From assembly GCA_944389535.1 (NCBI GenBank), contig CALXMS010000005.1, forward strand, positions 1-64,000: a DNA stretch of 64,000 nt, given 5' to 3'. Positions 1 through 58,537 of the stretch are shown piece by piece. Below the pieces are notes generated by a model. It was not told where the DNA came from and did not search any database. It worked only from the letters and a program-made list of their open reading frames with translations. Both the position numbers and the translations under genes were made by a program. This DNA comes from an uncultured Alphaproteobacteria bacterium (GTDB lineage: Bacteria; Pseudomonadota; Alphaproteobacteria; Rs-D84). Within the stretch, counting starts at the first letter, position 1, and the number at the start of each line of letters is the position of its first letter.

Positions 1-1
1 G

Positions 2-3000
2 TGTCAGATAAGTGTAGCGGCTGGTAAATATATAGCGACTGTGAATAGCTCTACTCAATCGACATGTACTGCCGGTTACGCGTGTCCTGGTGGATTAGTA
101 AATTATGGTTCGACAGGTATACGTAATCAATGTACTGGCGCAACATATGCCGGTTCAGGTGCAAGCAGTTGTTCTAATTGTCCAAGTGGATATACAGCGA
201 ACACGACAGCAGGAAAGACGGCAGCAAGCGCATGTCAGATAAGTGTAAGTGCCGGTAAATATATAGCGACTGCAAATAGTGCGACCCAATCTACGTGTAC
301 AGCTGGTTATGCCTGCCCCGGTGGATTAGTAAATTATGGTTCTACAGGGAAACGCACTCAGTGTACAGGTGCAACATATGCTGGTTCTGGTGCGAGCAGT
401 TGTTCTAACTGTCCGAGTGGTTATGATGACGACACGACTGCCGGGAAGACAGCAGCAAGTAGTTGCAAGATAAGTGTTGCTGGTGGTAAGTATATAAAAA
501 CTGCAAACAGTGCGACTTTATCCACTTGTTCGGCGGGTACATACAAAGCAGCACATACAGTAAGTTATGGAAGTACATCAAGTTGTAGTGCATGTACTGG
601 ACGAACTAAGTATAGTGCTGCTGGTGCAAGTGCGTGCAGTACGGTAAGCAGTGGATATTATTCAACTGGCTGTAACACCAGTAACAATAACTGTACTGGT
701 CAAAGGCAGTGTACTGGTGCGACGTATTGTAGCAGTGGTGTTCAATATAGTTGTCCAAGTGGATATACAGCGAACACAACGGCTGGTAAGACTGCGGCAA
801 GTGCGTGTCAGATAAGTGTTGCTGGTGGTAAGTATGTAGGTACAGCAAACAGTGCGACTTTATCTACATGTGCGGCTGGTACATATAAAGCGGCCCATAC
901 GGTAAATTATGGAAGTACATCAAGTTGTAGTGCATGTACAGGTCGTACTAAGTATAGTGGTGCTGGTGCAAGTGCATGCAGTACGGTAAGCACGGGTTAT
1001 TATACGACCGGCTGTAACACCAGTAACAATAACTGTACAGGTCAAAGTCAGTGTACCGGTGCGACCTATTGTAGTGGTGGTGTGCAAAATTCATGTCCAA
1101 GTGGTTATACGGCGAACACGACAGCAGGAAAGACGGCAGCTAGTCAGTGCAAGATAAATTGTTCTGGGGGATATCGTGTAACAACTGCTAATGGGGCGTG
1201 TACAGCGATAACTAGCGGCAATGTATACATTGGTTCACATATTGTATCGTATGGCAGTACATCACCTGCTGCGACGTCATGTCCAACGAGTTATACGATA
1301 AGTGGCAAAACTGCGGCAGATCACGATGCAAAGTCTGATTGTAAGATAAGCTGCGCGGCAGGTACACGAGTAGCAAGTGCGGATGCGGCGTGTACTACAC
1401 CGACTGGCAGTTGGTATAGTGCTGCACATACAGTATCTGCGGGTTCTACATCTGGAACAAATGTAAAGTCATGTGTAAGTGGTTATGCGACAGCGAACAC
1501 TACTACAAAGACGGATCATGATTCGTCTACGGATTGTAAGATAAGTTGCGCAGCAGGTACACGAGTAGCAAGTGCGAATGCAACATGTACGACTCCGTCT
1601 GGTAACTGGTATGTAGGTGCGCATACGGTAAGCCAAGGTAGCACGAGTAGTGTGAACAGTTGTTTAAGCAATTATACGATAAGTGGCACAACTGCGGCAA
1701 ATCACGATACGGCGAGTGATTGTAAGATAACTTGTGCTGGTGGAACATATTTGGCAACAGCGAATGCAACATCTTGTACTAGTGTGGGTACGGGATATTG
1801 GGCCGCAGCGACGACGGTAAGTCAAGGCAGTACGAGTACCAGGACACAATGCCCTGCGAATTATCGAAGTGGTGCTGCAGCAAGTGCACAAAGCGGATGT
1901 CAGACCAGTTGTGCTGGTGGAACATATGTGGCGACGGCGAATGCGGCATGTACTAGTGTAGGAACCGGATATTATAAGGCGGCACATACAGTAAACTATG
2001 GCAGTACGAGTACCAGGACACAATGCCCTGCGAATTATCGAAGTGGTGCTGCAGCAAGTGCGGCGAGTGGATGTCAGACCAGTTGTAGTGGTGGGACATA
2101 TGTAGCGACGGCGAATGCGGCATGTACGAGTGTTGGCACTGGGTATTATAAAGCGGCACATACAGTAAACTATGGCAGCACGAGTACCAGGACACAATGC
2201 CCTGCGAATTATCGAAGTGGTGCTGCAGCAAGTGCGGCGAGTGGATGTCAGACCAGTTGTAGTGGTGGGACATATGTAGCGACGGCGAATGCGGCATGTA
2301 CGAGTGTTGGCACTGGGTATTATAAAGCGGCACATACAGTAAACTATGGCAGCACGAGTACCAGGACCGCCTGTCCTAGTGGATATGATGATGGTGCAGC
2401 TGCAAGTGCGGCAAGTGGATGTAAGATAAGTGTAGCTGGTGGTAAATATATAGGTACAGCAAACAGTGCGACTTTAAGTACATGTTCTGCTGGTACATAT
2501 AAAGCGGCGCATACGGTAAATTATGGAAGTACATCAAGTTGTAGTGCATGTACAGGTCGTACTAAGTATAGTGGTGCTGGTGCAAGTGCATGCAGTACGG
2601 TGACAACTGGTTATTACACGACCGGCTGTAACAGTAGCAGCAATAACTGTACAGGTCAAACCAAGTGTGAAGCCACATATTATTGCGAGGGTGGTATTAA
2701 GAATGCATGCCCCACTGCAGACGACCATAAACGAACAAGTTTTCCTGATAATTATCACGATCCAATAATATCAAAAACGTATGTTACAAGTGATTATTCG
2801 GGATTACCAAGCATAAGTAACTGTACTGTTATATCTACATTAAATTCAGCTAGAGGAACTTTGTATGAATATGCCCAATATAATACAAGTACTGGTAAAT
2901 ATGAAAATACAACAAGTTATGGTTGGTATAAGGTAAATTCCGGATATTACCTAGAAAGTCGATCAGGGTGTGGCACGTATCAGTATTTTAAAGAGGCAAG

Positions 3001-6000
3001 TGTTTGTCCTGCTGGAAGTTATTGCCCTGGTGCTGCAGCAATTGCTTGTAATTCATCTGTAACAACACTTGGATTAAACTCTTGTCCATCAAGTTACCCG
3101 AACAGTGCTGCGCAAGCTGGTGCGATAACTCAGTGTTATAGTAATACCAAATCTCGTGCGTGGACGGGCAGTCAGGTAAATGGCAGTGTACCGACAAACT
3201 GTGCAAGCGTAAAGACTTGGGGAAGTTGTTCTAAACCTGCATGCGATTATGTAGCATATTCTAATAGTGCTGGTACAGGCGATGGGACAATAAAGAGCGG
3301 GTGTTCAACAAATAGCGCATCTTGTACAAAACCTGTTGTTGCGGTTACAGCAAAAGCCGGATATTACGATAACGGTACTACGTGTGCTGCGTGTTCTGGA
3401 TTGGCAAGTGGTTTTTATCCAAATTCTGCTGAAGGAAATGAAGGGGGCGCATCAGCATGTTATACGAATAGTCTAAGTGGTAAATACGTAGCATCGGCAA
3501 ATGCAACAAGTGCAACGGCTTGCGCAAACTGGACATATAAGGGTGCTCATACAGTAAACTATGGCAGTACATCAAGTTGTACATCTTGTCCAGCTGTAAC
3601 AAGTGGTTGGAGTAAGAAAGACAGCGCCGGTACCGGTTGGACCAGTTATACAAGTTGCGTACAGGTAAGTGGTACACCAACTAATTGTGCATCTGGTAAC
3701 TTAAAGCAGACTGCGACCAGTTCTACTGCGTGGGGGGCGTCCGCTGTAAATACTGCGCTAAGTGCGAACTCTAAATATTACGTAAATGGTACGTCATGCA
3801 GTGCGTGTCCCGCGGGTAGTTATTGTACTGGTGGTACAGCGGCGGCGACCAAATGTGCAATAGGTTCGTATAGTACAGGTACTGCGAGTGCATGTACGGT
3901 CTGTGGTGCTGGTAAGACGACGGCCAGCACTGGTACGACAGCGGCATCAAGTTGTACGTCATGTACTGCTATCAGTGGATTATCTTCGTGGGCGACGCCT
4001 ACTTGGAGTGCCAATACAGTAAGTAACCTGTGTACAGTATCTACGTGTCAGGCAAATTATTATAAGAGTGGTAACACGTGTCCGACATGCAGCAGCGGAA
4101 CGAATGGCGATTATACGAAGAGTGCTGCTGGGACGACGAGTGTAAACAGTTGTTATTTAACGACAACGGCTGGAAACTATGTAGAAACTGCAAAAGCTGG
4201 GGAAGTTACATGTGCTGCGGGTGGTTGGTGTCCTGGTGGTTCGAACATCTATTATGGCACGGGTACGACGACAGGTGGACGAACGGCATGTTCTACATTG
4301 GGCACAGGGTATACTAACACAAGTACTGGTCAGAAAGCGAACACAAGTTGTTATTTACCGGTTGCTGGCGGTAAGGTACGTGTTGGGACCAGTGGTGTAA
4401 CGTTAGATACGTGTGATGCTGGTACATATAAAGCGGCGCATAACGCATATTATGGGACATCGTATAGTTGCGATAATTGTACAGGTCGTACTAAGTATAG
4501 TGGTGCTAGTGCAAGTGCATGCAGTACGGTAAGTACGGGTTATTACACGACCGGCTGTAACACCAGTAACAATAACTGCACTGGTCAAACTCAATGCGAA
4601 TTAAATACGTATTGTGAGGGTGGTATTAAGACCGCATGTCCTGATCCAGAAACGCATAAACGTACAACTTTTCCAAGTAAATATTATTCGCCTAGTTTTT
4701 TATCTACTCAGTTTGGTGGATTTGCTGTGGGTAGTAGTAGTATTTCTCAATGCGCCGCATTCTCGTGGTTAGAATCATCTCGTGGGCTTTTATATGAATA
4801 TGCGAGATATAACACAACTACAGAAAAATATGAAAATACAACAAACTACGGTTGGTCAGATGTTAATCCTGGTTATTATTTAACAAACAAAGGGGGGTGT
4901 GGAGCATATGCGTATTATTTAGATAATTTGGTGTGTCCTGAGGGATCATATTGCCCAGGTAAATCTAGAGTCTCATGTAATGCAGGCAATCAGGCAACGG
5001 TTCATACTACAAACTTTGGTCTGGAAACTTGCCCGACTGGATATCCGAACAGTGCTGCGCAAGCTGGTGCAATTACTCAGTGTTACAGTAATACCAAATC
5101 TCGTGCGTGGACGGGGACGCAGACTGCGTGCGCAAAGCCGACCGGGTGTTATTCTGTAACGTGTAACGCCTGCTCTATCGACGCGTGTGATTATGTGGCT
5201 TATTCTAATACCGCCGGTACAGGTGACGGCACGGTAAAGTCCGGATGCGAAACTAATAACGCCGCATGTCAGCAGACGTTGAAAAGCGTTACCGCTAATG
5301 CAGGACGGTATGTCAGTGGTTTGACCTGCCCCGCATGTTCGGTTGGAACGTATCAAGGTACAAATGGTGCCACGGTAACAAGTTGTTCTGTATGTTCTGG
5401 AAATACTTATGCTGCGTCAGAAGGTACGGCAACATGCAGCAGTTGCCCGACAAGTTATACAATCAGCGGTACCACCGCAGCAGATCACGATGCAAAGTCT
5501 GATTGCAAGATAAGTTGCGCTGCAGGTACACAAGTCGCAACGGCGGATGGAGCATGCACAACACCGGCATCCAGCTGGTATACATCTGCTCATACAGTGG
5601 CCGCTGGGTCTACATCTGGAACAAACGTAAAAGCCTGTTTGACTAATTATGCGACACCGTTAACGCAAACAAGAACAGATCATGACGCGTCTACGGATTG
5701 TAAGATAAGTTGCGCGGCAGGTACAAGAATTGCGTCCGCTAATGCAACAAGTTGTACTACACCGTCTGGTAACTGGTATATAGGGGCACATACGGTAAGC
5801 CAAGGCAGCACAAGTAGTGTAAACAGCTGTTTAACTAACTATACGATAAGTGGTACGGCCGCAGCAAATCACGATGAGGTCGCAGATTGTAAGATTACTT
5901 GTGTTGGTGGTTCTTATATCGCAACCGCTAATAATACATCTTGTACACCTGTTGGTGCAGGATATTGGGCGGCAGAATCCATCGTTTCACAGGGCAGCAT

Positions 6001-6286
6001 TGGCGTCCGTAACGCGTGTGACGACGGACTGACAACCATTGGTTCCGGTAATGGTGCTGACGAAGCCGGTGACTGCGGACGAATACTGAACGTGAACGGA
6101 GAAAAAGTATATCTGCGTAGTGACAAAAAGACTACCCCGTCTTTGAACGTAAGTATCAGTGGTAAGACTTTCTATGGCAATATGGGAACAAGCTATGATA
6201 GTCCGCTGAAAATTAAATCTGGGACGACCACTTATTCAGTATACGATGATTCCGATAATATTATTTATATACCAGATAAAGAATGA
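2..6286 (+). CDS. Giant Cys-rich repeat protein, 5' end outside the window
   Basis: At least 2094 codons. A GTG at 41 could serve as a start, but the same frame is open back to base 2 and already encodes the repeat motif (CQISVAAGKYIAT), so the true start lies upstream. The protein is built from short Cys-rich modules rich in Ser, Thr, Gly, Ala and Asn, with recurring motifs such as CPSGYTANTTAGKTAAS, CTGRTKYSGAGASAC and AHTVNYGSTS. Spaced Cys pairs resemble GCC2/GCC3 or ephrin-receptor-like modules of extracellular proteins. The last 80 residues or so differ: few Cys, strand-rich (VNGEKVYLRSDK), possibly a C-terminal globular or secretion domain. No membrane anchor or sortase motif is visible. 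It contains three tandem 174-bp repeats, a duplicated module, and a 459-bp tract shared with the gene at 50509. A surface or secreted adhesin-like role is inference; no signal peptide can be seen because the N-terminus is missing. Confidence 0.85.
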   Translation, partial: CQISVAAGKYIATVNSSTQSTCTAGYACPGGLVNYGSTGIRNQCTGATYAGSGASSCSNCPSGYTANTTAGKTAASACQISVSAGKYIATANSATQSTCTAGYACPGGLVNYGSTGKRTQCTGATYAGSGASSCSNCPSGYDDDTTAGKTAASSCKISVAGGKYIKTANSATLSTCSAGTYKAAHTVSYGSTSSCSACTGRTKYSAAGASACSTVSSGYYSTGCNTSNNNCTGQRQCTGATYCSSGVQYSCPSGYTANTTAGKTAASACQISVAGGKYVGTANSATLSTCAAGTYKAAHTVNYGSTSSCSACTGRTKYSGAGASACSTVSTGYYTTGCNTSNNNCTGQSQCTGATYCSGGVQNSCPSGYTANTTAGKTAASQCKINCSGGYRVTTANGACTAITSGNVYIGSHIVSYGSTSPAATSCPTSYTISGKTAADHDAKSDCKISCAAGTRVASADAACTTPTGSWYSAAHTVSAGSTSGTNVKSCVSGYATANTTTKTDHDSSTDCKISCAAGTRVASANATCTTPSGNWYVGAHTVSQGSTSSVNSCLSNYTISGTTAANHDTASDCKITCAGGTYLATANATSCTSVGTGYWAAATTVSQGSTSTRTQCPANYRSGAAASAQSGCQTSCAGGTYVATANAACTSVGTGYYKAAHTVNYGSTSTRTQCPANYRSGAAASAASGCQTSCSGGTYVATANAACTSVGTGYYKAAHTVNYGSTSTRTQCPANYRSGAAASAASGCQTSCSGGTYVATANAACTSVGTGYYKAAHTVNYGSTSTRTACPSGYDDGAAASAASGCKISVAGGKYIGTANSATLSTCSAGTYKAAHTVNYGSTSSCSACTGRTKYSGAGASACSTVTTGYYTTGCNSSSNNCTGQTKCEATYYCEGGIKNACPTADDHKRTSFPDNYHDPIISKTYVTSDYSGLPSISNCTVISTLNSARGTLYEYAQYNTSTGKYENTTSYGWYKVNSGYYLESRSGCGTYQYFKEASVCPAGSYCPGAAAIACNSSVTTLGLNSCPSSYPNSAAQAGAITQCYSNTKSRAWTGSQVNGSVPTNCASVKTWGSCSKPACDYVAYSNSAGTGDGTIKSGCSTNSASCTKPVVAVTAKAGYYDNGTTCAACSGLASGFYPNSAEGNEGGASACYTNSLSGKYVASANATSATACANWTYKGAHTVNYGSTSSCTSCPAVTSGWSKKDSAGTGWTSYTSCVQVSGTPTNCASGNLKQTATSSTAWGASAVNTALSANSKYYVNGTSCSACPAGSYCTGGTAAATKCAIGSYSTGTASACTVCGAGKTTASTGTTAASSCTSCTAISGLSSWATPTWSANTVSNLCTVSTCQANYYKSGNTCPTCSSGTNGDYTKSAAGTTSVNSCYLTTTAGNYVETAKAGEVTCAAGGWCPGGSNIYYGTGTTTGGRTACSTLGTGYTNTSTGQKANTSCYLPVAGGKVRVGTSGVTLDTCDAGTYKAAHNAYYGTSYSCDNCTGRTKYSGASASACSTVSTGYYTTGCNTSNNNCTGQTQCELNTYCEGGIKTACPDPETHKRTTFPSKYYSPSFLSTQFGGFAVGSSSISQCAAFSWLESSRGLLYEYARYNTTTEKYENTTNYGWSDVNPGYYLTNKGGCGAYAYYLDNLVCPEGSYCPGKSRVSCNAGNQATVHTTNFGLETCPTGYPNSAAQAGAITQCYSNTKSRAWTGTQTACAKPTGCYSVTCNACSIDACDYVAYSNTAGTGDGTVKSGCETNNAACQQTLKSVTANAGRYVSGLTCPACSVGTYQGTNGATVTSCSVCSGNTYAASEGTATCSSCPTSYTISGTTAADHDAKSDCKISCAAGTQVATADGACTTPASSWYTSAHTVAAGSTSGTNVKACLTNYATPLTQTRTDHDASTDCKISCAAGTRIASANATSCTTPSGNWYIGAHTVSQGSTSSVNSCLTNYTISGTAAANHDEVADCKITCVGGSYIATANNTSCTPVGAGYWAAESIVSQGSIGVRNACDDGLTTIGSGNGADEAGDCGRILNVNGEKVYLRSDKKTTPSLNVSISGKTFYGNMGTSYDSPLKIKSGTTTYSVYDDSDNIIYIPDKE
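1838..2359 (+). repeat. Three tandem 174-bp coding repeats
   Basis: Units at 1838-2011, 2012-2185 and 2186-2359 each encode 58 residues beginning TRTQCPANYRSGAAASA and ending AAHTVNYGSTS or close to it. By eye, units 2 and 3 are identical over their full length, while unit 1 differs at scattered positions. The unit length is a multiple of three, so gain or loss of units keeps the frame. This is the pattern of a recent duplication by unequal crossing-over or slippage. Confidence 0.9.
2494..3168 (+). repeat. Duplicated module, copy A (copy B at 4424-5116)
   Basis: Copies A and B encode about 230 aligned residues in the same order: TYKAAH, CTGRTKYSG, TGYYTTGCN, a CEGGIK motif, then a Cys-poor insert with HKRT-FP, LYEYA-YNT and KYENTT-YGW, and finally YPNSAAQAGAITQCYSNTKSRAWTG-like sequence. 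Divergence is moderate, so this duplication is older than the 174-bp repeats. The insert looks like a small folded domain between Cys-rich modules; I do not recognise it. Confidence 0.75.
3122..3580 (+). repeat. 459-bp tract identical to 51088-51546
   Basis: From GCGATAACTCAGTG to ATCAAGTTGT this segment matches the second giant gene base for base by my reading, in the same reading frame. The flanks on both sides are homologous at protein level but clearly diverged at DNA level. Confidence 0.9.
4424..5116 (+). repeat. Duplicated module, copy B (copy A at 2494-3168)
   Basis: Second copy of the module described at 2494-3168. It keeps the TKYSGA, TGYYTTGCN, CEGGIK, HKRTTFP, LLYEYARYNT and YENTTNYGW motifs but differs at many codons, and the segment after the YGW motif is longer before the YPNSAAQ sequence returns. 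Confidence 0.75.
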
Positions 6287-6697: not shown

Positions 6698-9307
6698 ATG
6701 TTTAAAAATGTAATCGCTAAATTATTAGGTTCCGCTAACGACAGAATCGTTAAATCTTATGACAAAGTCGTTTCTTTAATAAATGATATGGAACCAAAAT
6801 ACCATGCCATGTCCGATGAAGAATTACGCGAACAAACCAATGTTTTGCGTAAACGTTTGGCAGCCGGTGAAAAAGAAAAAAGCATTTTACCAGATGCTTT
6901 TGCGGTCGTTCGTGAAGCTGCAATTAGATCTATTGGGTTGCGGCATTTTAACGTCCAGTTAATCGGTGGTATGGTTTTAAACAACGGGCAAATCGCAGAA
7001 ATGAAAACCGGTGAAGGTAAGACTTTGGTCGCAACCTTGGCGCTGTATTTAAAGGCATTACATGGTAAAGGCGCCCATCTTATAACCGTTAATGACTATT
7101 TGGCTTCTCGTGACGCAGAATGGATGGGGCAAGTATATCGTTTCTTGGGTATGACAGTTGGCGTGATTCAGCATGATATGACAGATGACGAGCGTAGAAA
7201 CGCTTATGCGTGTGACATAACGTATGTTACTAATTCTGAACTGGGCTTTGATTATTTGCGGGATAATATGAAGTTTTCTAAGGCTCAACAGGTTTTACGC
7301 CCGTTATTCTTTGCCATAGTTGACGAGGTTGATAGTATTCTTATTGATGAGGCAAGAACTCCTTTAATTATCTCTGGGCCCGCCGAAGATACCAGCGAAC
7401 TGTATGAAAAAGTGGACGCTGTTGTAGCAAAGCTTTCCCCAGACGATTATAAAAAAGACGAAAAAGACCGTCATGTTACCTTAACAGAAACCGGCGTTGA
7501 TACAGCAACGCGTATGCTTCAAGAAGCAGGCTTATTAATTGGCGATAATTTATATGCGTCTGAAAATGCGGCGCTGGTTATGCATATTCAGCAGTCTTTG
7601 TTGGCGCATCATCTGTATCAGAAAAACGTAAATTACGTCGTACGTAACGGTGAAATCCTTATTGTAGATGAATTCACAGGGCGCGTAATGACTGGTCGTC
7701 GCTTTGGTAAGGGATTACATCAGGCCATCGAAGCCAAAGAGCATGTAAAAGTTCAGCCAGAAAACCAAACGGTTTCAAGTATTTCGTATCAGAATTTATT
7801 CCGTTTATATCCTACGTTGTCAGGTATGACAGGTACCGCAATGACAGAAGCGGCAGAATTTGAAGAAATTTATAAATTACGTGTTGTTTCAATACCTACA
7901 AATCGTCCGGTGGCGCGCGTGGATCACCACGATGAAATTTATCGTAATAAAGAAGAAAAATATGATGCCATAATAAAACAGATAGAAGATTGTATGTCCC
8001 GTAAACAGCCTGTTTTGGTCGGAACTGTATCAATTGAAAAATCTGAAGAATTGGCGGCAATAGTTCGCAAAAGACTTGGTATTAACCCCGCTGTTTTGAA
8101 TGCGAAACATCATGAATCAGAGGCAAAAATTGTCGCGCAGGCAGGCGCACCTGGGGCGGTTACAATTGCGACTAACATGGCTGGACGCGGAACGGATATT
8201 AAGTTGGGCGGTAATGCTGAAGAACTTATTGCTGAATTAGACCCAGAAGCATCTGATTTTGAATCTAAAAAACAAGAAATATATACCCGCATTGAAAAAA
8301 ATAAAAAGCAAGTCTTGGATGCAGGTGGTTTGTACGTAATCGGTACTGAACGTCACGAATCTCGTCGAATTGACAATCAATTACGTGGGCGAAGCGGTCG
8401 TCAAGGTGACCCAGGGGATTCTAAGTTCTTTCTGGCCCTAGACGATGATTTGATGCGTATATTCGGAGCTGCACGATTGCAAGGTATGTTAACCACTCTT
8501 GGTTTAAAACCGGGGGAAGCCATCACGCACCCATGGATAACCAAAGCTTTAGAAAAGGCGCAGAAACGTGTGGAGTCTCGTTACTTTGAATCACGTAAAG
8601 AATTATTAAAATACGATGACGTTATGAACGAGCAGCGCGGCGTTGTTTATAAACAGCGTGACGACTTAATGGTGTCTGAGGATTTAAAACCATTAGCGCG
8701 CGAAATGATAGGCGACGTCATAGAACTTATCTGTGAAAATAATATTCCAGAAAAGTCTCATCAGGCCGATTGGAATATAAAAGGAATTCACGATACAATG
8801 TTACGCGTATTCGCTTTGGACATAACTGATATAGATAAATGGAAGACAGATGAAACTGTATCAGAACGTCGAGCATATGAAATTTTATACAATTTGGCTA
8901 TGAGACGTTATCAGCAGCAGACGGAAAAATATGGTCCGGAACTGATGCAAATGGCTTCTCGTCAGATGATGTTGGGGGCTTTGGATTCTGTGTGGAAACG
9001 TCATCTGCAGCAAATGGATTATTTGCAAACTGCCATAGGTTTACGTGGTTATGCTCAGAAAAATCCATTGTACGAATATAAGCGTGAAGCTTTAGAATTA
9101 TTTAGAAACACTATAAATAATTTTAAAATCATGTCGGTATCGTATATTTGCCGCATGGAATTAACGCGGGAAGACGTTGCGGCAACAGAAAAAGAACGTG
9201 CTAAACACGATGCGGCATTAAATGATGCTGGTGAAGCGCGCAGAAATGCACCCTGCCCGTGTGGTTCCGGATTAAAATATAAACATTGTTGTGGTAAGTT
9301 AAAGTAA
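6698..9307 (+). CDS. secA: Preprotein translocase ATPase SecA
   Basis: Motor of the general secretion (Sec) pathway: binds preproteins at the inner membrane and drives them through SecYEG using ATP. At 869 aa it has the usual bacterial length. Walker A is MKTGEGKT (residues 102-109), the DEAD-type Walker B is VDEVDSILIDEARTPLI, and motifs GMTGTA, TNMAGRGTDI and QLRGRSGRQGDPG follow in order. The C-terminus carries the SEC-C zinc motif (CPCGSGLKYKHCCG) that binds SecB and ribosomes. The start has AAGGAT upstream and its own promoter. It is a single-gene unit closed by a terminator shared with the convergent phosphofructokinase gene. It would be needed to export the giant Cys-rich proteins if they use Sec. 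Confidence 0.98.
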   Translation: MFKNVIAKLLGSANDRIVKSYDKVVSLINDMEPKYHAMSDEELREQTNVLRKRLAAGEKEKSILPDAFAVVREAAIRSIGLRHFNVQLIGGMVLNNGQIAEMKTGEGKTLVATLALYLKALHGKGAHLITVNDYLASRDAEWMGQVYRFLGMTVGVIQHDMTDDERRNAYACDITYVTNSELGFDYLRDNMKFSKAQQVLRPLFFAIVDEVDSILIDEARTPLIISGPAEDTSELYEKVDAVVAKLSPDDYKKDEKDRHVTLTETGVDTATRMLQEAGLLIGDNLYASENAALVMHIQQSLLAHHLYQKNVNYVVRNGEILIVDEFTGRVMTGRRFGKGLHQAIEAKEHVKVQPENQTVSSISYQNLFRLYPTLSGMTGTAMTEAAEFEEIYKLRVVSIPTNRPVARVDHHDEIYRNKEEKYDAIIKQIEDCMSRKQPVLVGTVSIEKSEELAAIVRKRLGINPAVLNAKHHESEAKIVAQAGAPGAVTIATNMAGRGTDIKLGGNAEELIAELDPEASDFESKKQEIYTRIEKNKKQVLDAGGLYVIGTERHESRRIDNQLRGRSGRQGDPGDSKFFLALDDDLMRIFGAARLQGMLTTLGLKPGEAITHPWITKALEKAQKRVESRYFESRKELLKYDDVMNEQRGVVYKQRDDLMVSEDLKPLAREMIGDVIELICENNIPEKSHQADWNIKGIHDTMLRVFALDITDIDKWKTDETVSERRAYEILYNLAMRRYQQQTEKYGPELMQMASRQMMLGALDSVWKRHLQQMDYLQTAIGLRGYAQKNPLYEYKREALELFRNTINNFKIMSVSYICRMELTREDVAATEKERAKHDAALNDAGEARRNAPCPCGSGLKYKHCCGKLK

Positions 9308-39736: not shown

Positions 39737-39746
39737 AAACCTCGTT

Positions 39747-47901: not shown

Positions 47902-48989
47902 CAGAAAAAAAATATGTTTTAAGTAACGCAACCATAATACAAAGAATACCTAAAAGTGAAACCAATCCATATGGTTATATTCCAACAGAGGTTGTACCAT
48001 TTGACAAACCAACCATGGCAGTTTTTGGCGGCGACTTAACGCAAACAGAAAGAAACGCTAATTATTATGCAAAGCAAATAGAAGAACTATTAAAAGAAAG
48101 CGGTATCAGTAACATAAATATTTACTCTATCGCTTATAATTTTGGTTCGGGACGTTCAAAACTTGAACGTGCTGAAATGTTTCGTTCTGCAGGTCGCAGA
48201 ATTAAAGAAGAACGTATTTTACCAGAAGCAAAAAAAAGACTAGATTTGATACAAAAATCAATGAAGGATAACGAACCCGTTCCTAATTACATTAAACAAT
48301 TATATAAAATATTTTTATATCCAAGAATTTCTGATGAAAATAACAAACCTTTAAATATAAATGATGCTGTTTTCAGAATTAGAAAAATTAAATTTTATGC
48401 TCACTGTCAGGGTGCCGCTGCATTATGGCAAATGTCAAATTATATGTATGATGAAATGTTGCGCATGGGATACGAAAAAAAGAATATAGAAAAAATTCAA
48501 AAAGAATTGTTGGTAATTCAACATAGTCCTCTTGCACCGTTGAACAAACAAAAATTTATGACTATTTCATTTGCATCTGCAAATGATACAATGATGCAAG
48601 ACCATAACAACCAATTTGCAGATTGGTTTAACGACAATTATCAAGACATTATTCCATGTTATTTCGGGCCTAAACACGGTAACATTTTTATTGCGACAAA
48701 TTTATACACTAATTCTTTTAAAGAACACGATAATAGATGTATCGTGCCTTCAGAAGAAATTAGTTGCCCATTAACAACAGAAGGCAAAATAATATTTACG
48801 GCCGAACGTAACGCCTTAATTAGATCCGCATTAAAGGCCATTGATGAAACACCTATAAAATCCGTCGCAGAACTAACCGATGGTAACGGGGTAAATTTCA
48901 AACGGCTAAAAAAGAATGGTGATGCTGTTTATTCTGTTATGCTGAACGATTTACATCTACAAAATTTATCACACGATCATCAAAAATAA
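47898..48989 (+). CDS. Unknown protein, alpha/beta-hydrolase-like
   Basis: 363 aa, no signal peptide. TMAVFGGDLTQTERNANYYAKQIEELL resembles the first strand and helix of an alpha/beta hydrolase, and KFYAHCQGAAALWQMSNYM resembles the nucleophile elbow with Cys in place of Ser (A-H-C-Q-G). Later IQHSPLAP and FGPKHGNIFIAT may provide the His. I do not recognise the family; a thiol or degenerate hydrolase is inference. Its start overlaps rimI (ATGA), and its 3' end overlaps the convergent helicase gene by 53 bases. Confidence 0.7.
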   Translation: MTEKKYVLSNATIIQRIPKSETNPYGYIPTEVVPFDKPTMAVFGGDLTQTERNANYYAKQIEELLKESGISNINIYSIAYNFGSGRSKLERAEMFRSAGRRIKEERILPEAKKRLDLIQKSMKDNEPVPNYIKQLYKIFLYPRISDENNKPLNINDAVFRIRKIKFYAHCQGAAALWQMSNYMYDEMLRMGYEKKNIEKIQKELLVIQHSPLAPLNKQKFMTISFASANDTMMQDHNNQFADWFNDNYQDIIPCYFGPKHGNIFIATNLYTNSFKEHDNRCIVPSEEISCPLTTEGKIIFTAERNALIRSALKAIDETPIKSVAELTDGNGVNFKRLKKNGDAVYSVMLNDLHLQNLSHDHQK

Positions 48990-50217
48990 TATCTTTCGGT
49001 TTTAACGGTGCCACTACGTGCATATCATACGCGTTACGAGTTCGAGATAAAGCAACGTAAGTCTGCCCGTGAGTAAACGCACCACGTGATATATCAACGA
49101 TTACATTATCTAATGTCTTACCCTGCGCTTTGTGTATGGTCATCGCATAACCAAGATTTAATGGGAATTGCTTAAAACTGCCAACTTCTTGTTCTTGCAA
49201 TCTATCATTTTCATCACGAATATATTCTATCTTCTGCCAAGTTTCTGGTTTTACCGACACAATATCCCTGGATTTATTAAACAATTCAACAACGATCTCT
49301 CTTGCCGATAAATTACGTATTATTCCCATAGAACCGTTATACCACTTATCTCCATTTTTTACAAAAACGACTAAAGCACCTATTTTTAAAGTCAAATTCA
49401 TAGGGGCAGGAACATCACGCTCTTGAAAAGAACCCGTTAATTCCCCAGTATAACTTACTTCTGGAGCTTGTATCTGCGCCAAACGAGATGAATTTATACG
49501 TTCGGCGACCGCACGAAAAGGCGTTATTATAACGGCGTTTTCCAAACGTGACTTGTCGACAAACTTACAACCATTAAAAAAATCTAACGCACTTAAATCA
49601 TTGTTACGTAATTTTCTTAAATTTTCTAATAAGGTTTTATCACTTTGTCTATAAACCAAATCAAAATCATACCTTAAAAAATCCGCGCGTTTATATGCAT
49701 TACTATCAAAAAAATACGCATTATCATGCTCATAGGCCATACGATAATAATCCATTGCTTCACGAGTTATTACAGGCGGCAGTTGAAACAAATCACCAAT
49801 GGCAACGACCTGAAGCCCACCAAAAGGCTCATTATTACGACGCGCCGTCCTGGCCAATATATCTACAGCATCTAGCAAATCCGGTGCCACCATAGAAATT
49901 TCATCTATTATCAGAACATCTGCCGCATTTAATATATTCCTTGGTTTCGCCTTTAATTTTAATAATTCGGGCATTATAAAATCTCGCGGTTGAATCTGAA
50001 ACAAAGAATGTATGGTTTGCCCGCCAACGTTCAGCGCAGAGACTGCCGTGGGACAAGCACATATAATCCGCTTTTTTGACGCGCTTTTTAAATAATTTAC
50101 AAAAGTTGACTTCCCTGTACCTGCCTGCCCTAAAATTAATACATTAGAGTTAGTATTTTCTATTACATCAAATGCTTTTTTCTGAATATTACTTAAAATA
50201 CTTACTAATTCCGCCAT
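48937..50217 (-). CDS. Pif1/RecD-like superfamily 1B DNA helicase
   Basis: 426 aa. 5'-3' helicase: Walker A ILGQAGTGKSTFVNYL, CPTAVSALNVGGQTIHSLFQ (Ia), VLIIDEISMVAPDLLDAV (II), GDLFQLPPV (III), then ITPFRAVAERIN and PLNLGYAMTIHKAQGKTLDNVIVD with YVALSRTRN (V/VI). Pif1-like proteins unwind G-quadruplexes and forked DNA. Compact, with no extra domains. The ATG has no clear Shine-Dalgarno. Tail-to-tail overlap of 53 bases with the hydrolase-like gene. Confidence 0.92.
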   Translation of the reverse strand: MAELVSILSNIQKKAFDVIENTNSNVLILGQAGTGKSTFVNYLKSASKKRIICACPTAVSALNVGGQTIHSLFQIQPRDFIMPELLKLKAKPRNILNAADVLIIDEISMVAPDLLDAVDILARTARRNNEPFGGLQVVAIGDLFQLPPVITREAMDYYRMAYEHDNAYFFDSNAYKRADFLRYDFDLVYRQSDKTLLENLRKLRNNDLSALDFFNGCKFVDKSRLENAVIITPFRAVAERINSSRLAQIQAPEVSYTGELTGSFQERDVPAPMNLTLKIGALVVFVKNGDKWYNGSMGIIRNLSAREIVVELFNKSRDIVSVKPETWQKIEYIRDENDRLQEQEVGSFKQFPLNLGYAMTIHKAQGKTLDNVIVDISRGAFTHGQTYVALSRTRNAYDMHVVAPLKPKDIIFDDRVINFVDVNRSA

Positions 50218-50508: not shown

Positions 50509-53500
50509 ATGGGAAAAAGTCGCGTTTTTCTGCGGATTTTTGCATCTTTATTTATTACGTTTTTTGCGACAAATGTATTCGCTGCTGGTTATACTTGCCC
50601 TACATATAAAAAATATACCAGTTGTAATGCTGGTTACTATATGACAGCCAGTTCTTCATCATCGGCCTGTAATACTACGCCTGCTGCTGGTAATGCGTGT
50701 CGTCCGTGTTCTACTATGGGATCTAATTATACCTGTTCTGGTGGTACAGCCTGCCCAACATTAAATACAGTTACAATAACATATAATTTAAATGGTGGTT
50801 CTGGAACTACGCCTAATGCAAAACAATGTAACGTTGGTTCTTCTTGTTCTTTACAATCTGGTGCGACAACATCTTTCTATCGTGCTGGTTATGTATTTGC
50901 GGGTTGGTCGACTACAAGCACCGCAACGACTGGTTCTACATCGATGACGTTTACCGCTGCAGATACGGTATATGCAGTTTGGACAAAGTGCGCTGCTGGA
51001 ACATATAAGGGTGGCAGTGGTACTCAGGCAAGTGCAGCTTGTTCTACCTGTCCATCGGGTTATCCGAACAGCGCAGAAGCATCGACGGCGATAACTCAGT
51101 GTTATAGTAATACCAAATCTCGTGCGTGGACGGGCAGTCAGGTAAATGGCAGTGTACCGACAAACTGTGCAAGCGTAAAGACTTGGGGAAGTTGTTCTAA
51201 ACCTGCATGCGATTATGTAGCATATTCTAATAGTGCTGGTACAGGCGATGGGACAATAAAGAGCGGGTGTTCAACAAATAGCGCATCTTGTACAAAACCT
51301 GTTGTTGCGGTTACAGCAAAAGCCGGATATTACGATAACGGTACTACGTGTGCTGCGTGTTCTGGATTGGCAAGTGGTTTTTATCCAAATTCTGCTGAAG
51401 GAAATGAAGGGGGCGCATCAGCATGTTATACGAATAGTCTAAGTGGTAAATACGTAGCATCGGCAAATGCAACAAGTGCAACGGCTTGCGCAAACTGGAC
51501 ATATAAGGGTGCTCATACAGTAAACTATGGCAGTACATCAAGTTGTTACAACTGTTTAGCAGTAGAGTCAGGTTGGACTAAGGCCAGTGGCACAGGATGG
51601 ACAACCTATGCATCATGTAAAGAAACAAAGACCGGCTCAGCAATAAGTAGCTATTGTGATGCCGGTGTTCTGACAAAAACACAATCTAGTGCAAGTGCAT
51701 GGGGAACGTCAGCAATAACTACAAACCTAAGTGCAAAATCAGGTGCTTATGTAAGTGGTCAAACTTGTTTAAACTGTACACAAGGTAGTTATTGTACGGG
51801 TGGTACAGCGGCAGCTATTAAATGTGCAGCCGGTTCTTATAGTGGTGCCGGTGCAAGTGCATGTACACCGTGCCAAAGTGGTAAAACAACCTCTACAACA
51901 GGGCAAACCAGTTGTAATGCCACGTGCAGTAATGCGGCTAACGTAAGTACATGGTCTAATGCAACTTGGGCTGCAAATACTGTAACTAATCTTTGTACAA
52001 TATCTACATGTTCTTCGGGTTATACAAAAAATAGTAATGCTTGCGTTGCTTCTAATTATACCATCACTTATAAAAACGGTGGTGGCACAGGGTCTGATGT
52101 AACACAAAGCGTTACTTATAACACAAAATTTACAACGAAAGCCTCCAATACATTTACTCGTCCTGGATATAACTTCAGCAGTTGGGGCGGCTCTTATCCT
52201 AATCCGAGCAGCGATTACACGTATACCACCGCGGGCAATACTACATTAACTGCCCAATGGAGTGCTTGTGCCAATAACCCAACAGCACCGGGAACATGTA
52301 ATTGTGGTGACACACAATTCCCGAATGGTTCAGGATGTGAAGCGTGCTCTAAGTCATGTTCTGGCGTTACTGGTTTTACATTAGGTACATATGACGTTTG
52401 CAAAAGCCAGACAAATAATCAATGCTATCGTAATTGCACGACATCTGATGTGGCAAATTCAAGCGCAGTTAGCGGTACTGTAACCAAAGGTGGCACCGTT
52501 TCATGTAAGGCGACGTCTTGTAAAGCGAATTTCTACTTATCTGGCAGCGGATGTGCAGCTTGCGTACCAAATGCAACCTGTCCAGGGGAAGACGAACCTT
52601 TTACATGTAATACTGGATATCATTTATCAAATGACGGTACTAGTTGCGAACCAAATGAATATTCTATTACACTGAAAAAGAATGGCGGTACAGGAACAAT
52701 AAACGGTTCAACAGGGACTAATGACGCCGTACAAACATGTAAGCATGGCGAATTATGCAATCTTCCTTCCAGTGGGTTAACTCGCACAGGTTATGCTTTC
52801 ACAGGTTGGGGCACATCATCTTCTTGTACCAGCGGCGTATTCCAACGTACATTTACGTCTGCAACGACTTTATATGCTTGCTGGTCACAGCAAACAACGA
52901 CTTGTCAATCTGGTAAATACTATAATGGTTCTGAACATGTTACATGCCCTGCTGGTATGTTCTGTCCAGGAACTGGTTCTACAAATATAGGTTCTGCAGG
53001 TTGTGCTCAAGATTGTCCTGGCTCTGGTACCTCTGATGCGGGTGCAACATCACAAACGCAATGTTACATATCATGTTCTGGGAAAACGATAACTGGGGGA
53101 AAACTAACTGCAGATTCTTCTAAATCTAATTACAACGGTTCAACTTATCCTGCTTGTACGTACACAGCGAACTGTAATGAAGGTTATCTTGCTTCAGGTA
53201 ACGGTACATCTGCTGCAACGTGTACCAAGTGCCAAAACGGAGTTGTTTGCCCAGGTGGGACAAGCCAATCACAACCATCACAATGTCCTGCAGGATCATA
53301 CTGTGAAGCCGGCATTGCTAAAACATGTCCAAGCGGCGGTACATCTGATGCGGGTGCCGGCGCAGCAACCGACTGTTATAAAGTATGCCAAGATAATTCT
53401 ATTACAGGTGGAACACAAGAAGCAATTAATGAGAAAGTAAAGTGGACTGGTTCCGCGTATCCGTCATGTACGTATAATGCAAATTGTAATCCTGGCTATG

Positions 53501-56500
53501 TTGCATCTGGGAACGGAACGACCACGGCCAAATGTACACAATGCCAAAATGGTGTCGTTTGCCCAGGAGGAACAAGTCAAGCAGAACCAGAATTATGTCC
53601 CGTAGGTTCATACTGCATAGCAGGTATTTCCCATTCTTGTCCTGCTGGTGGCACATCTGCAGCTGGTGCGGTTTCCAAAAACGACTGTTACAAAGTTTGT
53701 AGTCCAACCTTATCCATCACAAATGGGCAAGGTATATCAACCGGTAACGCATATTATAACGGCTCAGAATATCCTGCGTGTCAATATCGTGCAGAATGTA
53801 ATGACGACTACATAGCTCAGAACAGCCCAAGCGCAAACCCAAGCTGTATATGGGCAGATCCAGATGCATGTCCAATTGGTTTCTATTGCCCGCCAGACAG
53901 CCCCGCACCAATTCAATGCCCAGATGGCGGAACTTCTGATATTGGTTCTACAAACATTACACAGTGTTATAAAATATTTGACGATTACGAAGGGTTCCAA
54001 AACGGTGTTGCGTCGGCAAAATGTTTCTATCAAAATACTACTACTCTTTATGATGCATGTAGTATACTTGAAGTTAAAAGCTGTATCGCCGGTTATTGGT
54101 ATGCGCAACAAAATGCGTTCCTATGCAGTGAAATATCAAGTGGTTATTATAGCCCTGCAGGACAAATAACTCGAACGGCATGCCCTGTAGACCCAAGTGG
54201 TGGTCAAGTTGGCTCCTTGGAAAAAGCGGATAGTTATACAGACTGTTACAAAACTTGCTCATTAAACGTATCTAATTCAACGTCTGTTGCGGCAAAAGAT
54301 AACGAAGTTTATGGTATAACTGAAGATACTTATGCTGCGTGTTCTTTCGCTGTAACGTGTGAAACTGGGTATACAGTTCAAAATAACAACACTGCAAATC
54401 CGTCATGTAAAGCAAACACTTATACAATTACGCTTGATAAAAACGGTGGTACCGGTTCAACTCAAACAAGCATACAATGTACGTTTGACAGTGGCAGCTG
54501 TACTTTACCTGCAGTTACAGGGTTATCAAGACCAGGTTATACTGTACAAGCCAAATGGTGCTCCGACAAAAATGGTAATGGTCCATGCTATTACGCAGGT
54601 CAATCAACAGCCACAAATATATCTGAAACTGGTAAAGATGTAACTTTATACGCAGTATGGTTGCCTAATATATACAAGATTACGTTGGATCATCAAAATG
54701 CAAATATAAGTGGTGCCCCAAGCGTAGTATATTTAAAGTATGCGAATGGCTGGTATAGTGATGACAGTGCTACAACCCCCATATCTAAACTAACAACGCT
54801 GCCGGAAAAAACAGGTTACGACTTTGCTGGTTATTACAACAGTACTCAGGCTGGTGGTATTCAGATTACTTCTGCGAGTGGTGTATTTCAAACATCAGCA
54901 AATGCCCTAACCTTTACAACAAAAGATGCCAGCATATATGCAAAATGGTCAGCAGGTATGACATCGTGCGCTGCGGGGACTTATTATACTGGCACCGGAT
55001 CCTTGTGCCAAGCATGCTCTGCCAATCATTATTGTCCTGGCGGAACTTTTGCAACAGACGTCGGAACACCAGAAGGTTTAAATGCATGTCCAGAACAAGG
55101 GGCTTCGCCTTCAAACTCAACATCCATAACACAGTGTTATAAAACGAAGTTAGCTTATACTGCCTCACATGGTTCAGGAACACAAACTTGTAACTATGAT
55201 GACGATACAAAGTCTTATAACGCAAATTGCACAAACAAAGTTATAAATATATGTGACTCTGGTTATTATCTAGCAGATTCGGGGGCAACGACCCCAGATT
55301 GTGAACCAGTTGGCAAGGGATATTATAGTGAAGGCACAGATACAACACGTATGCAATGTCCTAATAACGGCGATACAGAGTCTGCCACATCCACTATGAT
55401 ACAACAATGCTTTAAGACAGGATTGTCGTATTCGGCGACTTACGGTTCCGGAACACAGCGCTGCTTCTATTCTAGCGGAACTGGTACGTCCGCAATATAT
55501 CAACGAGACTGTGATACTAAAGTGATAACAAGTTGTCGCGGTGGTTATTGGCTGGCAAATAGCAATGATATAGATTGTGTAGAAGTAGGACAAAACTATT
55601 ATAGCGTTTCCAATGACACACAGCGACACGCCTGCCCTGCCAACGGTAAAACGAACGGCACAACATCAGATGATATATTGCTGTGTTACAAAGATGGTTT
55701 GCCATATACAGAGGCGCTACATGGAACAGGTGAATATCTGTGTTATTATACAAGTGGCACAGGTGACAGCGCTATTTATTCATCAAGCTGTAACTTACCA
55801 ACAATAACAAGTTGTGACGCTGGATATTATTACGATCACTTAACGTTGGCGACAGATTGTATAGAAGCAGAGAAAGGTTACTATAGTCCAGTAATGGATA
55901 TAAACCGTTATCAATGTGCGTTTGGCGGAACAACGAAAACAACAACTAGTGAATCTTCCGCAGAATGTTATCGTGATGATATGATGTGCAGAGTAACAAA
56001 CGGCTCTGGCGAACAAACCTGTAATTATAACGAAATAGATGGTGATTATACATTAGATTGTCAGACATGTTACGTAACTGAATGCGACGAAGGTTTCTCT
56101 CAGGTAGGCAATACCTGCATAACCTGTCCGGCTGATAACGTATGTACAGACGGTAAACAACAAACATGTGCATCTTTAACTGGTGGTTTATACACCAAGT
56201 CCGACCCAGGAACAACTGATGTATCTATGTGTTATACAAGCTGTGCATTGGAAGAAAATGCCGCGGCAATGGACGGACGCGATTATTATACAGCCCCAGA
56301 CACATGTACAATAAGACGTTGCATGCCGGCTTATACGTTAAACGAAGGTCAGTGCGACATATGCCCAGCAGGAAGTTTTTGTGATGGAACAATTGATCCG
56401 ATAAATCCGGGAGATGACATAACATCTTGTGATTCATTAAAAACAGGTGAATGGTCTATGTCTTTACCGGGTTCAAAAGACGCAACACAATGTTACGCTG

Positions 56501-57303
56501 AATGTAAGCAACGTAAAATTGAGAACGGTACAGCATTGCCCGTTAACGACACAGAATTCTATCCGACGGCATGTAAATTCACAGGTATATCAGATACAGG
56601 CAACCCATGCGATATAATTGACGATGTTTGCGTAGAAACATCTTGCAATGCAGGATATGAAATGAAAGACGGCAAATGCGTTCAGTGTTATCGCGAACAT
56701 GCCATAGGGTACACAGAAGGAGGTATATGCCATGTATCAGAATGCGTGGCTGGATATCATCCGAACGGTGGCGACAAATGCGAACCTAATTTACAAGAAT
56801 GTAGCGTACCCAATGCAGTATACGCAGAAAGAACTTGGGACTTTAAGAAAAACGCGTTCGGTCCATGCGTCATAAAGGAATGTGAATCTGAGTTTCATCT
56901 ATCTTCTAACGCATGCGTATCTGATGTACAACCATGTAACGTTGAAAACGGTGCAGGCTTTAAAGAATGGGATCCTAAGATCAAAGATTGGGGTAAATGC
57001 ATCGCCGTTTCTTGTAACCCAGGTTATACGAACGATCCATCAGAAACGAACGAACTTACCAAACAATGTGGTGAATGTAAGAATAAATATAGTACTCTTG
57101 GGAAACTAGCGGTCAGCAGCTATGTTCAAGGATGTGAAATTGCATCTTGCATGTATCAGGGAGAGCTTTATACCCTTGAAAACAACGAATGCATCCAAAT
57201 TTGTCCGCTTGAAGAATATTCAGACGAAACAGGAACTAAAGTATGGGACGAAAGTAGAAAGAAGTGCGTTCGTACATGTAATGATGGTTACACAATGTGG
57301 TAA
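50509..57303 (+). CDS. Giant secreted Cys-rich protein with InlB-like repeats
   Basis: 2264 aa. Sec signal peptide MGKSRVFLRIFASLFITFFATNVFA, cleavage after about residue 25. Cys-rich modules recur throughout (CPAGSYC, CAAGSYSGAGASACTPC, CNAGYEMKDGKC), resembling GCC2/GCC3, ephrin-receptor or TNFR-like extracellular modules. Five segments match the Listeria-Bacteroides (Flg_new/InlB B) repeat: about residues 87-159 (ITYNLNGGSG...YVFAGWS...VYAVW), 517-584, 716-794, 1305-1384 and 1388-1480. Modules grow more acidic towards the C-terminus, which ends in CNDGYTMW with no anchor. About 459 bp are identical to the first giant gene. A strong Shine-Dalgarno and own terminator make it a single-gene unit. 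Surface adhesion or a coat-like role is inference. Confidence 0.92.
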   Translation: MGKSRVFLRIFASLFITFFATNVFAAGYTCPTYKKYTSCNAGYYMTASSSSSACNTTPAAGNACRPCSTMGSNYTCSGGTACPTLNTVTITYNLNGGSGTTPNAKQCNVGSSCSLQSGATTSFYRAGYVFAGWSTTSTATTGSTSMTFTAADTVYAVWTKCAAGTYKGGSGTQASAACSTCPSGYPNSAEASTAITQCYSNTKSRAWTGSQVNGSVPTNCASVKTWGSCSKPACDYVAYSNSAGTGDGTIKSGCSTNSASCTKPVVAVTAKAGYYDNGTTCAACSGLASGFYPNSAEGNEGGASACYTNSLSGKYVASANATSATACANWTYKGAHTVNYGSTSSCYNCLAVESGWTKASGTGWTTYASCKETKTGSAISSYCDAGVLTKTQSSASAWGTSAITTNLSAKSGAYVSGQTCLNCTQGSYCTGGTAAAIKCAAGSYSGAGASACTPCQSGKTTSTTGQTSCNATCSNAANVSTWSNATWAANTVTNLCTISTCSSGYTKNSNACVASNYTITYKNGGGTGSDVTQSVTYNTKFTTKASNTFTRPGYNFSSWGGSYPNPSSDYTYTTAGNTTLTAQWSACANNPTAPGTCNCGDTQFPNGSGCEACSKSCSGVTGFTLGTYDVCKSQTNNQCYRNCTTSDVANSSAVSGTVTKGGTVSCKATSCKANFYLSGSGCAACVPNATCPGEDEPFTCNTGYHLSNDGTSCEPNEYSITLKKNGGTGTINGSTGTNDAVQTCKHGELCNLPSSGLTRTGYAFTGWGTSSSCTSGVFQRTFTSATTLYACWSQQTTTCQSGKYYNGSEHVTCPAGMFCPGTGSTNIGSAGCAQDCPGSGTSDAGATSQTQCYISCSGKTITGGKLTADSSKSNYNGSTYPACTYTANCNEGYLASGNGTSAATCTKCQNGVVCPGGTSQSQPSQCPAGSYCEAGIAKTCPSGGTSDAGAGAATDCYKVCQDNSITGGTQEAINEKVKWTGSAYPSCTYNANCNPGYVASGNGTTTAKCTQCQNGVVCPGGTSQAEPELCPVGSYCIAGISHSCPAGGTSAAGAVSKNDCYKVCSPTLSITNGQGISTGNAYYNGSEYPACQYRAECNDDYIAQNSPSANPSCIWADPDACPIGFYCPPDSPAPIQCPDGGTSDIGSTNITQCYKIFDDYEGFQNGVASAKCFYQNTTTLYDACSILEVKSCIAGYWYAQQNAFLCSEISSGYYSPAGQITRTACPVDPSGGQVGSLEKADSYTDCYKTCSLNVSNSTSVAAKDNEVYGITEDTYAACSFAVTCETGYTVQNNNTANPSCKANTYTITLDKNGGTGSTQTSIQCTFDSGSCTLPAVTGLSRPGYTVQAKWCSDKNGNGPCYYAGQSTATNISETGKDVTLYAVWLPNIYKITLDHQNANISGAPSVVYLKYANGWYSDDSATTPISKLTTLPEKTGYDFAGYYNSTQAGGIQITSASGVFQTSANALTFTTKDASIYAKWSAGMTSCAAGTYYTGTGSLCQACSANHYCPGGTFATDVGTPEGLNACPEQGASPSNSTSITQCYKTKLAYTASHGSGTQTCNYDDDTKSYNANCTNKVINICDSGYYLADSGATTPDCEPVGKGYYSEGTDTTRMQCPNNGDTESATSTMIQQCFKTGLSYSATYGSGTQRCFYSSGTGTSAIYQRDCDTKVITSCRGGYWLANSNDIDCVEVGQNYYSVSNDTQRHACPANGKTNGTTSDDILLCYKDGLPYTEALHGTGEYLCYYTSGTGDSAIYSSSCNLPTITSCDAGYYYDHLTLATDCIEAEKGYYSPVMDINRYQCAFGGTTKTTTSESSAECYRDDMMCRVTNGSGEQTCNYNEIDGDYTLDCQTCYVTECDEGFSQVGNTCITCPADNVCTDGKQQTCASLTGGLYTKSDPGTTDVSMCYTSCALEENAAAMDGRDYYTAPDTCTIRRCMPAYTLNEGQCDICPAGSFCDGTIDPINPGDDITSCDSLKTGEWSMSLPGSKDATQCYAECKQRKIENGTALPVNDTEFYPTACKFTGISDTGNPCDIIDDVCVETSCNAGYEMKDGKCVQCYREHAIGYTEGGICHVSECVAGYHPNGGDKCEPNLQECSVPNAVYAERTWDFKKNAFGPCVIKECESEFHLSSNACVSDVQPCNVENGAGFKEWDPKIKDWGKCIAVSCNPGYTNDPSETNELTKQCGECKNKYSTLGKLAVSSYVQGCEIASCMYQGELYTLENNECIQICPLEEYSDETGTKVWDESRKKCVRTCNDGYTMW
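51088..51546 (+). repeat. 459-bp tract identical to 3122-3580
   Basis: Copy in the second giant gene, residues about 194-346. The wider region (about 51050-51920) is colinear with 3085-3960 of the first gene, but only this stretch is identical in DNA. Confidence 0.9.
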
Positions 57304-57335: not shown

Positions 57336-57373
57336 ATATGGCCAATTTTATAGATTTTTTAATTATATTATTC

Positions 57374-57379
57374 TACAAT
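57374..57379 (+). promoter_or_regulatory. -10 box abutting the flavoprotein start
   Basis: TACAAT six bases before the ATG at 57386; the -35 region is weak (TAGATT). Compatible with a leaderless mRNA. Confidence 0.45.
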
Positions 57380-57385
57380 CATAAC

Positions 57386-58537
57386 ATGAAAATATACGAC
57401 GTAGTTATTATAGGAGCCGGTGCCGCAGGATTAACAGCGGCTGCCGCGGCAACTGAACGAAACAAATCGGTGGCAATAATTGACATGGGTAAAACACCTG
57501 CAAGAAAAGTAATGGCATCTGGGGGTGGAAGATGTAATTTTACTAATATCAACGTTAATGTTAATAGATACTTCGGTAATAACCCTGATTTCGTACGCAG
57601 CGCTATTACACGTATAAACCCTCAAGATATTTTAAATTGGGCTAAAAAGCACAATATAACATGGGTGGAAAAAAATCCCGGACAGTATTTTTCAGAAACT
57701 GGTGCCGCAGACATAGTGAAAGCCATTATAAAAGACGCAAGTAAAGCCGATTTTTTCCTTGAAACGCAAGTTCTTGATACTAAATTTCAGTCCAACTTGT
57801 TTCATATAACAACTAATAATAAAACCTTTATCGCACGTTCTTTAATAATCGCAACAGGAGGAATTTCTTTCCCTGCTTTAACGGTTTCTGATTATGGATA
57901 TCAAATAGCAAAAATCTTTGGTCATAAAATTATTCCTGTTCGCCCTGCTCTTTGTGCAATAGCAACGCAAATTTTTCCAAAAAACTTAGCGGGGATATCT
58001 TTGAAAGTAGGAATATCCATTGGACATGAAAAATTTATCGACTCGATGTTATTTACTCACTTTGGGCTTGGTGGGCCTGCAATATATAGAGCAACTGTTC
58101 GCGATATTACAGATATACGTATAAACCTTATGCCTGAGGTGAACGTATACGATTTTTTAAAAGACGCTAAAACCACATCAGGAAAGAAAAAAGTTTCTAG
58201 TATATTATCGGAAAAATTACCTATAAAACTCGCCAAGTTATTTTGTCCTGATGATAAAAATATTGCGGATTACAAAGATGCTGAACTACGCCACATTGCC
58301 GATACGATACATGATATAATCATACCATATCAAAAAATAAAATTGTTTTCTCTAAAAAGCGCAGAAGTTGTCCGAGGCGGAGTGGATGTAACGTATATAT
58401 CATCTAAAACGATGGAATCAAAACTGCAACCAGGTTTGTTCTTTGCAGGTGAAGTTTTAGATATAGCCGGGGATTTAGGTGGTTTTAATTTACATTGGGC
58501 GTGGGCCAGCGGACACATTGCCGGTGAAAACGCATAA
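57386..58537 (+). CDS. HI0933/YhiN-family flavoprotein (NAD(P)/FAD-dependent oxidoreductase)
   Basis: 383 aa from ATG 57386 (MKIYDVVIIGAGAAGLTAAA), the family start; the frame to 57338 has no support. FAD-binding GAGAAG at the N-terminus, MASGGGRCNFTN (family hallmark), then IIATGGISFPALTVSDYGYQIAK, LFTHFGLGGPAIYRA and FAGEVLDIAGDLGGFNLHWAWASG at the C-terminus. The family includes BaiN and YhiN; substrates are mostly unknown. No Shine-Dalgarno. Confidence 0.93.
   Translation: MKIYDVVIIGAGAAGLTAAAAATERNKSVAIIDMGKTPARKVMASGGGRCNFTNINVNVNRYFGNNPDFVRSAITRINPQDILNWAKKHNITWVEKNPGQYFSETGAADIVKAIIKDASKADFFLETQVLDTKFQSNLFHITTNNKTFIARSLIIATGGISFPALTVSDYGYQIAKIFGHKIIPVRPALCAIATQIFPKNLAGISLKVGISIGHEKFIDSMLFTHFGLGGPAIYRATVRDITDIRINLMPEVNVYDFLKDAKTTSGKKKVSSILSEKLPIKLAKLFCPDDKNIADYKDAELRHIADTIHDIIIPYQKIKLFSLKSAEVVRGGVDVTYISSKTMESKLQPGLFFAGEVLDIAGDLGGFNLHWAWASGHIAGENA

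Follow-up and report, generated by a model that had tools for sequence, protein, structure and literature searches.

Inter-locus gene conversion has been described for the babA, babB and babC genes of Helicobacter pylori (PMC4552749), and silent cassettes convert expression loci segmentally in the pilE/pilS system of Neisseria, in vlsE of Borrelia and in msp2 of Anaplasma (PMC4534519). The pair of genes described here, A and B, resembles babA/babB in that full-length paralogues sit at conserved loci and chimeras are found in different lineages. The pair lies in the window analysed here, which is the whole stretch of 64,000 nucleotides from the start of contig CALXMS010000005.1 (C5 in short). 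The source genome is an 882 kb Candidatus Enterousia-type metagenome-assembled genome (MAG) with six contigs and 98.8% completeness, and its relatives with named records include Candidatus Enterousia and other gut Alphaproteobacteria. The genus consists of genome-reduced members of the order Rs-D84 from the guts of farm animals (PMC12306168); that paper makes no mention of repeats, surface proteins or adhesins (PMC12306168).

The two genes and the neighbours that mark their loci, the latter assigned by neighbour comparison, are as follows.

2..6286, forward strand: gene A, giant Cys-rich secreted repeat protein, with its 5' end on contig C6 (G000:C6:78759-79473), joined via a 77-bp overlap
6698..9307, forward strand: secA, right-hand marker of the A locus
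48937..50217, reverse strand: PIF1-like helicase, left-hand marker of the B locus
50509..57303, forward strand: gene B, giant Cys-rich secreted protein with List_Bact_rpt/Flg_new repeats
57338..58537, forward strand: HI0933-like flavoprotein, right-hand marker of the B locus

In agreement with the original prediction, both products are giant and Cys-rich: B has 2264 aa with 7.6% Cys, and A has at least 2094 aa in this contig with 7.1% Cys, reaching about 2,300 residues in full length when the part on C6 is included. The A locus has the order dnaK-A-secA, with the DnaK-like gene lying upstream of A on contig C6 (recognised by eye), and the B locus has the order PIF1 helicase-B-HI0933 flavoprotein; both are conserved across the genus. 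The loci were defined independently via these flanking genes, and the same A- and B-locus neighbours were present in many relatives. The order is also the same in a relative assembled as a single contig (G003), where A and B are about 50 kb apart. In the source genome, A and B are the only two members of their family that were found, and they lie in direct orientation, 48 kb apart. The interval between the loci contains genes expected to be essential, namely secA, rpsP, trmD, tsaD, sigma-70, cysS and obg.

Three further genes of the window were recorded. A second TsaD-family (perhaps TsaB) gene is present near gene B (46980-47525). A release factor gene (39640-40830) is found in two frames, with '...SAVRGFL stop' followed by 'FDPEK' in the +1 frame, and from its reading frames it looks like the familiar programmed frameshift of prfB. 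A Lon-like protein (44881-46677) contains substrate-binding, AAA and lid domains; a protease domain was not found in it, and there was no obvious continuation in the frames just downstream.

Both A and B have signal-peptide-like starts, as judged by eye. Gene B matched PF09479 (List_Bact_rpt/Flg_new) with 83.9 bits at a curated cut-off of 27, and four repeats scored above the cut-off; the window part of gene A gave no match to this family. The Pfam search returned no family for the rest of B, the tract domain described below or the window part of A, and no NCBIfam family was matched by gene A. The internal organization of the two genes includes the following features.

2006..2367, forward strand: exact 188-bp repeat within gene A (2006-2193 and 2180-2367), a sign of intragenic exchange
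5042..5488, forward strand: second module copy in gene A
50599..52128, forward strand: gene B, hypervariable N-terminus with the tract (residues ~30-540), A-like in parts
52129..57300, forward strand: conserved body of gene B

Comparison with 28 B orthologues demonstrated that the N-terminal ~500 residues of B are hypervariable and the other ~1,700 conserved, with a median of 34 bits per 60 aa in the N-terminus versus 79 in the body (P = 3e-9). Parts of the B N-terminus are closer to A genes than to other B genes, which suggests older exchanges. A first painting had marked the whole N-terminal third of B as A-derived; this was rejected with a larger panel, in which the region is a mixture, A-like in parts, because other B genes also vary there. 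Long exact internal repeats were observed in the A genes of several relatives (618 bp in G113, 544 bp in G102 and 510 bp in G003) and in the B gene of G121 (361 bp). An excess of such repeats in A over B, hinted at by a first sample, was dropped with the larger set (7/27 versus 4/38, P = 0.18).

The shared tract and its right flanks have the following positions.

3122..3580, forward strand: gene A copy of the 459-bp exact tract, the putative donor (exact-match comparison, codon comparison and edge analysis)
51088..51546, forward strand: gene B copy of the 459-bp exact tract, the putative recipient (same analyses)
3581..4081, forward strand: right flank in A, homologous to B 51547-52044 but saturated (54% aa, pS 0.72)
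51547..52044, forward strand: right flank in B, homologous to A 3581..4081 (codon comparison)

The two copies of the tract are identical over 459 bp in the assembly (0 mismatches), and the match is maximal, not extendable by one base on either side; the perfect identity of two copies 48 kb apart and both ends were thus exactly as first reported. Among the exact direct repeats of at least 40 bp in the window, the tract is the sole one not internal to gene A; the next longest is the 188-bp repeat within A. Over the whole genome (882 kb, six contigs), the tract occurs in these two places only. Chance is excluded, since the longest match in 19 other A/B pairs of the genus is no more than 29 bp.

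Counting synonymous differences inside and outside the tract had been proposed as a check on recent exchange. The codon comparison gave 0 differences over 106.7 synonymous sites in the tract (pS 0), and pS 0.72 in the right flank, where A and B are in register over 162 codons with 53.7% aa and 56.8% nt identity. By a rule-of-three estimate, the synonymous divergence of the tract would be under ~3% next to apparent saturation in the adjoining flank; recency is here judged from synonymous divergence only, with one genome per species. The contrast between the tract and its adjoining homologous flank supports conversion, and very probably the two paralogous loci, which are old, recently underwent a non-reciprocal homologous exchange that produced the tract. 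The ends of the tract are abrupt and both loci are otherwise intact and in place, as expected for gene conversion. The exactness of the identity is the sole point that would speak for strong purifying selection or a shared RNA element holding the tract identical. Protein constraint does not predict zero synonymous change, and in relatives the protein identity of the corresponding domain is down to 45-72%; this divergence ruled out both forms of constraint, which we regard as having practically no probability.

Most of a Cys-rich unit with two domains is encoded by the tract; the fold of this unit is predicted with confidence, at a mean pLDDT of 92.6. Of 156 genomes of the genus, 66 carry a homologue of the tract domain, and a sequence search revealed no significant relatives outside these homologues. 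A search of solved structures using the domain profile returned nothing, and a Foldseek search with the tract model nothing significant. The second half of the model aligns weakly to the Cys-rich region of EphA4 (Z 3.5, rmsd 2.6, 44 residues).

The edges of the tract sit in motifs common to both genes, and the short motifs kept by A and B are 'YPNSA..AITQCYSNTKSRAWTG' at the left edge and 'AHTVNYGSTSSC' at the right edge. The original prediction described the flanks as homologous and diverged. This description fits the right flank; the left flank has 32% aa identity, and homology is convincing only for the last ~12 codons before the tract. To the left of the tract, 24/24 bases of A equal those of its own second module copy (5042-5115), versus 13/24 for B. 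On the other side, contig C5 of the relative G100 carries the 3' half of the tract joined to the A right flank as one continuous, well-conserved stretch. By codon usage, the tract leans towards A with a log ratio of +4.3, on a scale where B windows were negative in 20/21 cases and A windows positive in 19/22. Since both edges continue native A sequence and the codon usage leans towards A, gene A was probably the donor and gene B the recipient; this direction applies to the source genome only and rests on few sites, and the two module copies of A may have exchanged with each other.

The tract has 61-81% aa identity to the A genes of relatives and the A right flank 92-97%, which would fit an independent acquisition of the tract by both genes from a third source, e.g. 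another strain or species. We consider this very unlikely, as the same stretch would have to be transferred twice, each time with identical ends, the continuity at the edges favours A as the native context, and the closest whole-length homologue of the tract in other genomes of the genus reaches at most 72% aa.

A- and B-locus genes were gathered from relatives, and 22 genomes with both loci were compared. The search for other shared tracts, likewise proposed at the outset, was successful in two of the relatives (one genome per species): the longest exact A/B match was 459 bp in the source genome, 277 bp in G155 and 266 bp in G099; in the other 19/22 it did not exceed 29 bp. The three tracts are located at different positions of the genes, in the middle (source genome), at the 3' end (G155) and at the 5' end (G099), and therefore represent separate events. 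The G155 tract extends over 562 bp at 98% identity and reaches the end of the reading frame, with identity dropping shortly beyond. At the B locus of G155, a second, A-like gene lies directly after B, and its last 562 bp are 98% identical to the A-locus gene of the same contig. The G099 tract spans the signal peptide and 43 bp upstream, with 98% identity over 347 bp; its contig C15 was assigned to the B locus by the PIF1 neighbour. Some further exact matches, located where contigs end (77 bp in G107, ~106 bp in G046 and ~125 bp in G015), are probably assembly overlaps and were left out of account. Judged from these sequences, inter-locus conversion is a recurrent process in the genus, in at least two related species besides the source; the 3/22 is likely a lower bound because many gene copies are cut at contig ends.

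The same contig ends raise the question of an assembly artefact, in which a short-read de Bruijn assembler collapsed differing copies or joined the wrong flanks. The junction concerned lies at the start of the window.

1..77, no strand: overlap with the last 77 bp of contig C6, a de Bruijn graph junction inside gene A (contig-end comparison)

C6 ends with the same 77 bases with which C5 starts, so gene A begins on C6, and as the overlap is inside gene A, the two contigs are probably chromosomal neighbours. An overlap of exactly 77 bp is typical of k-mer assembly and points to short reads, and the MAG was apparently assembled from such reads. In the genus as a whole, many of the A and B genes likewise lie at contig ends, and a repeat of 459 bp is longer than a usual short read, so that small differences between copies could be collapsed. 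However, flanks wrongly joined at direct repeats would produce a circle or a deletion, yet the order and ~50 kb spacing of A and B match those of the single-contig G003, and each locus has neighbours and a gene body of one type. A collapse requires long shared words at both ends, and therefore a recent shared tract would exist anyway; it could hide a few differences but hardly build the tract from flanks that are 57% identical in DNA. Mismatches persist in the G155 tract (98% over 562 bp) and in the G099 tract (98% over 347 bp), so neither was simply collapsed. An artefact is accordingly improbable as the origin of the tract. Contigs across the genus often break inside or beside A or B (G107, G099, G105 and G100), which suggests that these genes are systematically truncated in short-read MAGs; the loci are a warning in that they break, and may blur, such assemblies.

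For gene conversion between A and B, we infer the direction, the mechanism and the diversification of surface-exposed segments by exchange as follows. A RecA-dependent exchange would start in the short motifs kept by both genes, and recA is present in the genome. About 459 bp would then be copied in frame, with A as the most likely donor and the hypervariable N-terminus of B as the recipient, where the copied segment would replace most of the two-domain Cys-rich unit. A crossover between the direct copies would delete the intervening essential genes and be lethal; because such genes lie between the copies, only conversion without crossover is expected to persist. Repeated over a long time, the process could turn both genes into mosaics. 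MutS normally restricts exchange between diverged sequences, and the presence of mutS in the genome was counted against the gene-conversion explanation.

The original prediction combined gene conversion with a variation system. The first part, recent conversion or recombination, is borne out by the pS contrast and by the recurrence in G155 and G099; the second is doubtful, and only two such genes and no archive of silent cassettes were found in the genome. An evolved antigenic or receptor variation system, which would add to conversion rather than replace it, would use A as a module reservoir and the B N-terminus as the displayed variable region. Consistent with such a role are the ~500 hypervariable, partly A-like N-terminal residues of B next to a conserved body, the tracts in 3/22 genomes and the signal-peptide-like starts of both genes (by eye). 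Against it, no silent partial copies were found in the source genome (six contigs, 98.8% completeness), only two family members were found there, both loci look like full genes, the B-locus partner in G155 is the A-like second gene beside B with the tract at the C-terminal end, and the internal-repeat excess of A was not significant. We therefore regard it as doubtful that the genes form an evolved system, and only tentatively consider a two-gene version in which an internally reshuffled A would supply whole Cys-rich units to the B N-terminus by in-frame conversion. If true, a small-genome commensal would gain a mosaic surface repertoire without a silent archive.

Two loci for giant Cys-rich secreted proteins are conserved in a genus of uncultured gut bacteria with reduced genomes, and segments are repeatedly exchanged between them. 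The pair offers a testable model for the diversification of host-facing proteins in small genomes.

Compared with proteins carrying List_Bact_rpt/Flg_new repeats (PF09479, TIGR02543), B shares four repeats; outside these, neither B nor the tract domain, nor the part of A in the window, has a Pfam match. The predicted second half of the tract has a weak resemblance to ephrin-receptor-type Cys-rich modules (Z 3.5). In pilE/pilS, vlsE and msp2, as in A/B, tens to hundreds of bp are transferred non-reciprocally to a variable region that has conserved sequence on either side (PMC4534519); those systems use silent partial cassettes, whereas none were found here and the putative donor is a full-length gene. 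The bab genes, like A and B, are full-length paralogous surface-protein genes at fixed loci, in which segmental conversion yields chimeras that differ between isolates (PMC4552749). The bab paralogues have near-identical ends, a divergent middle and CT-repeat phase variation (PMC4552749), whereas A and B are older paralogues and Cys-rich. Unlike bab, the A/B pair belongs to an uncultured alphaproteobacterium, is without a known ligand and is documented by evidence between species.
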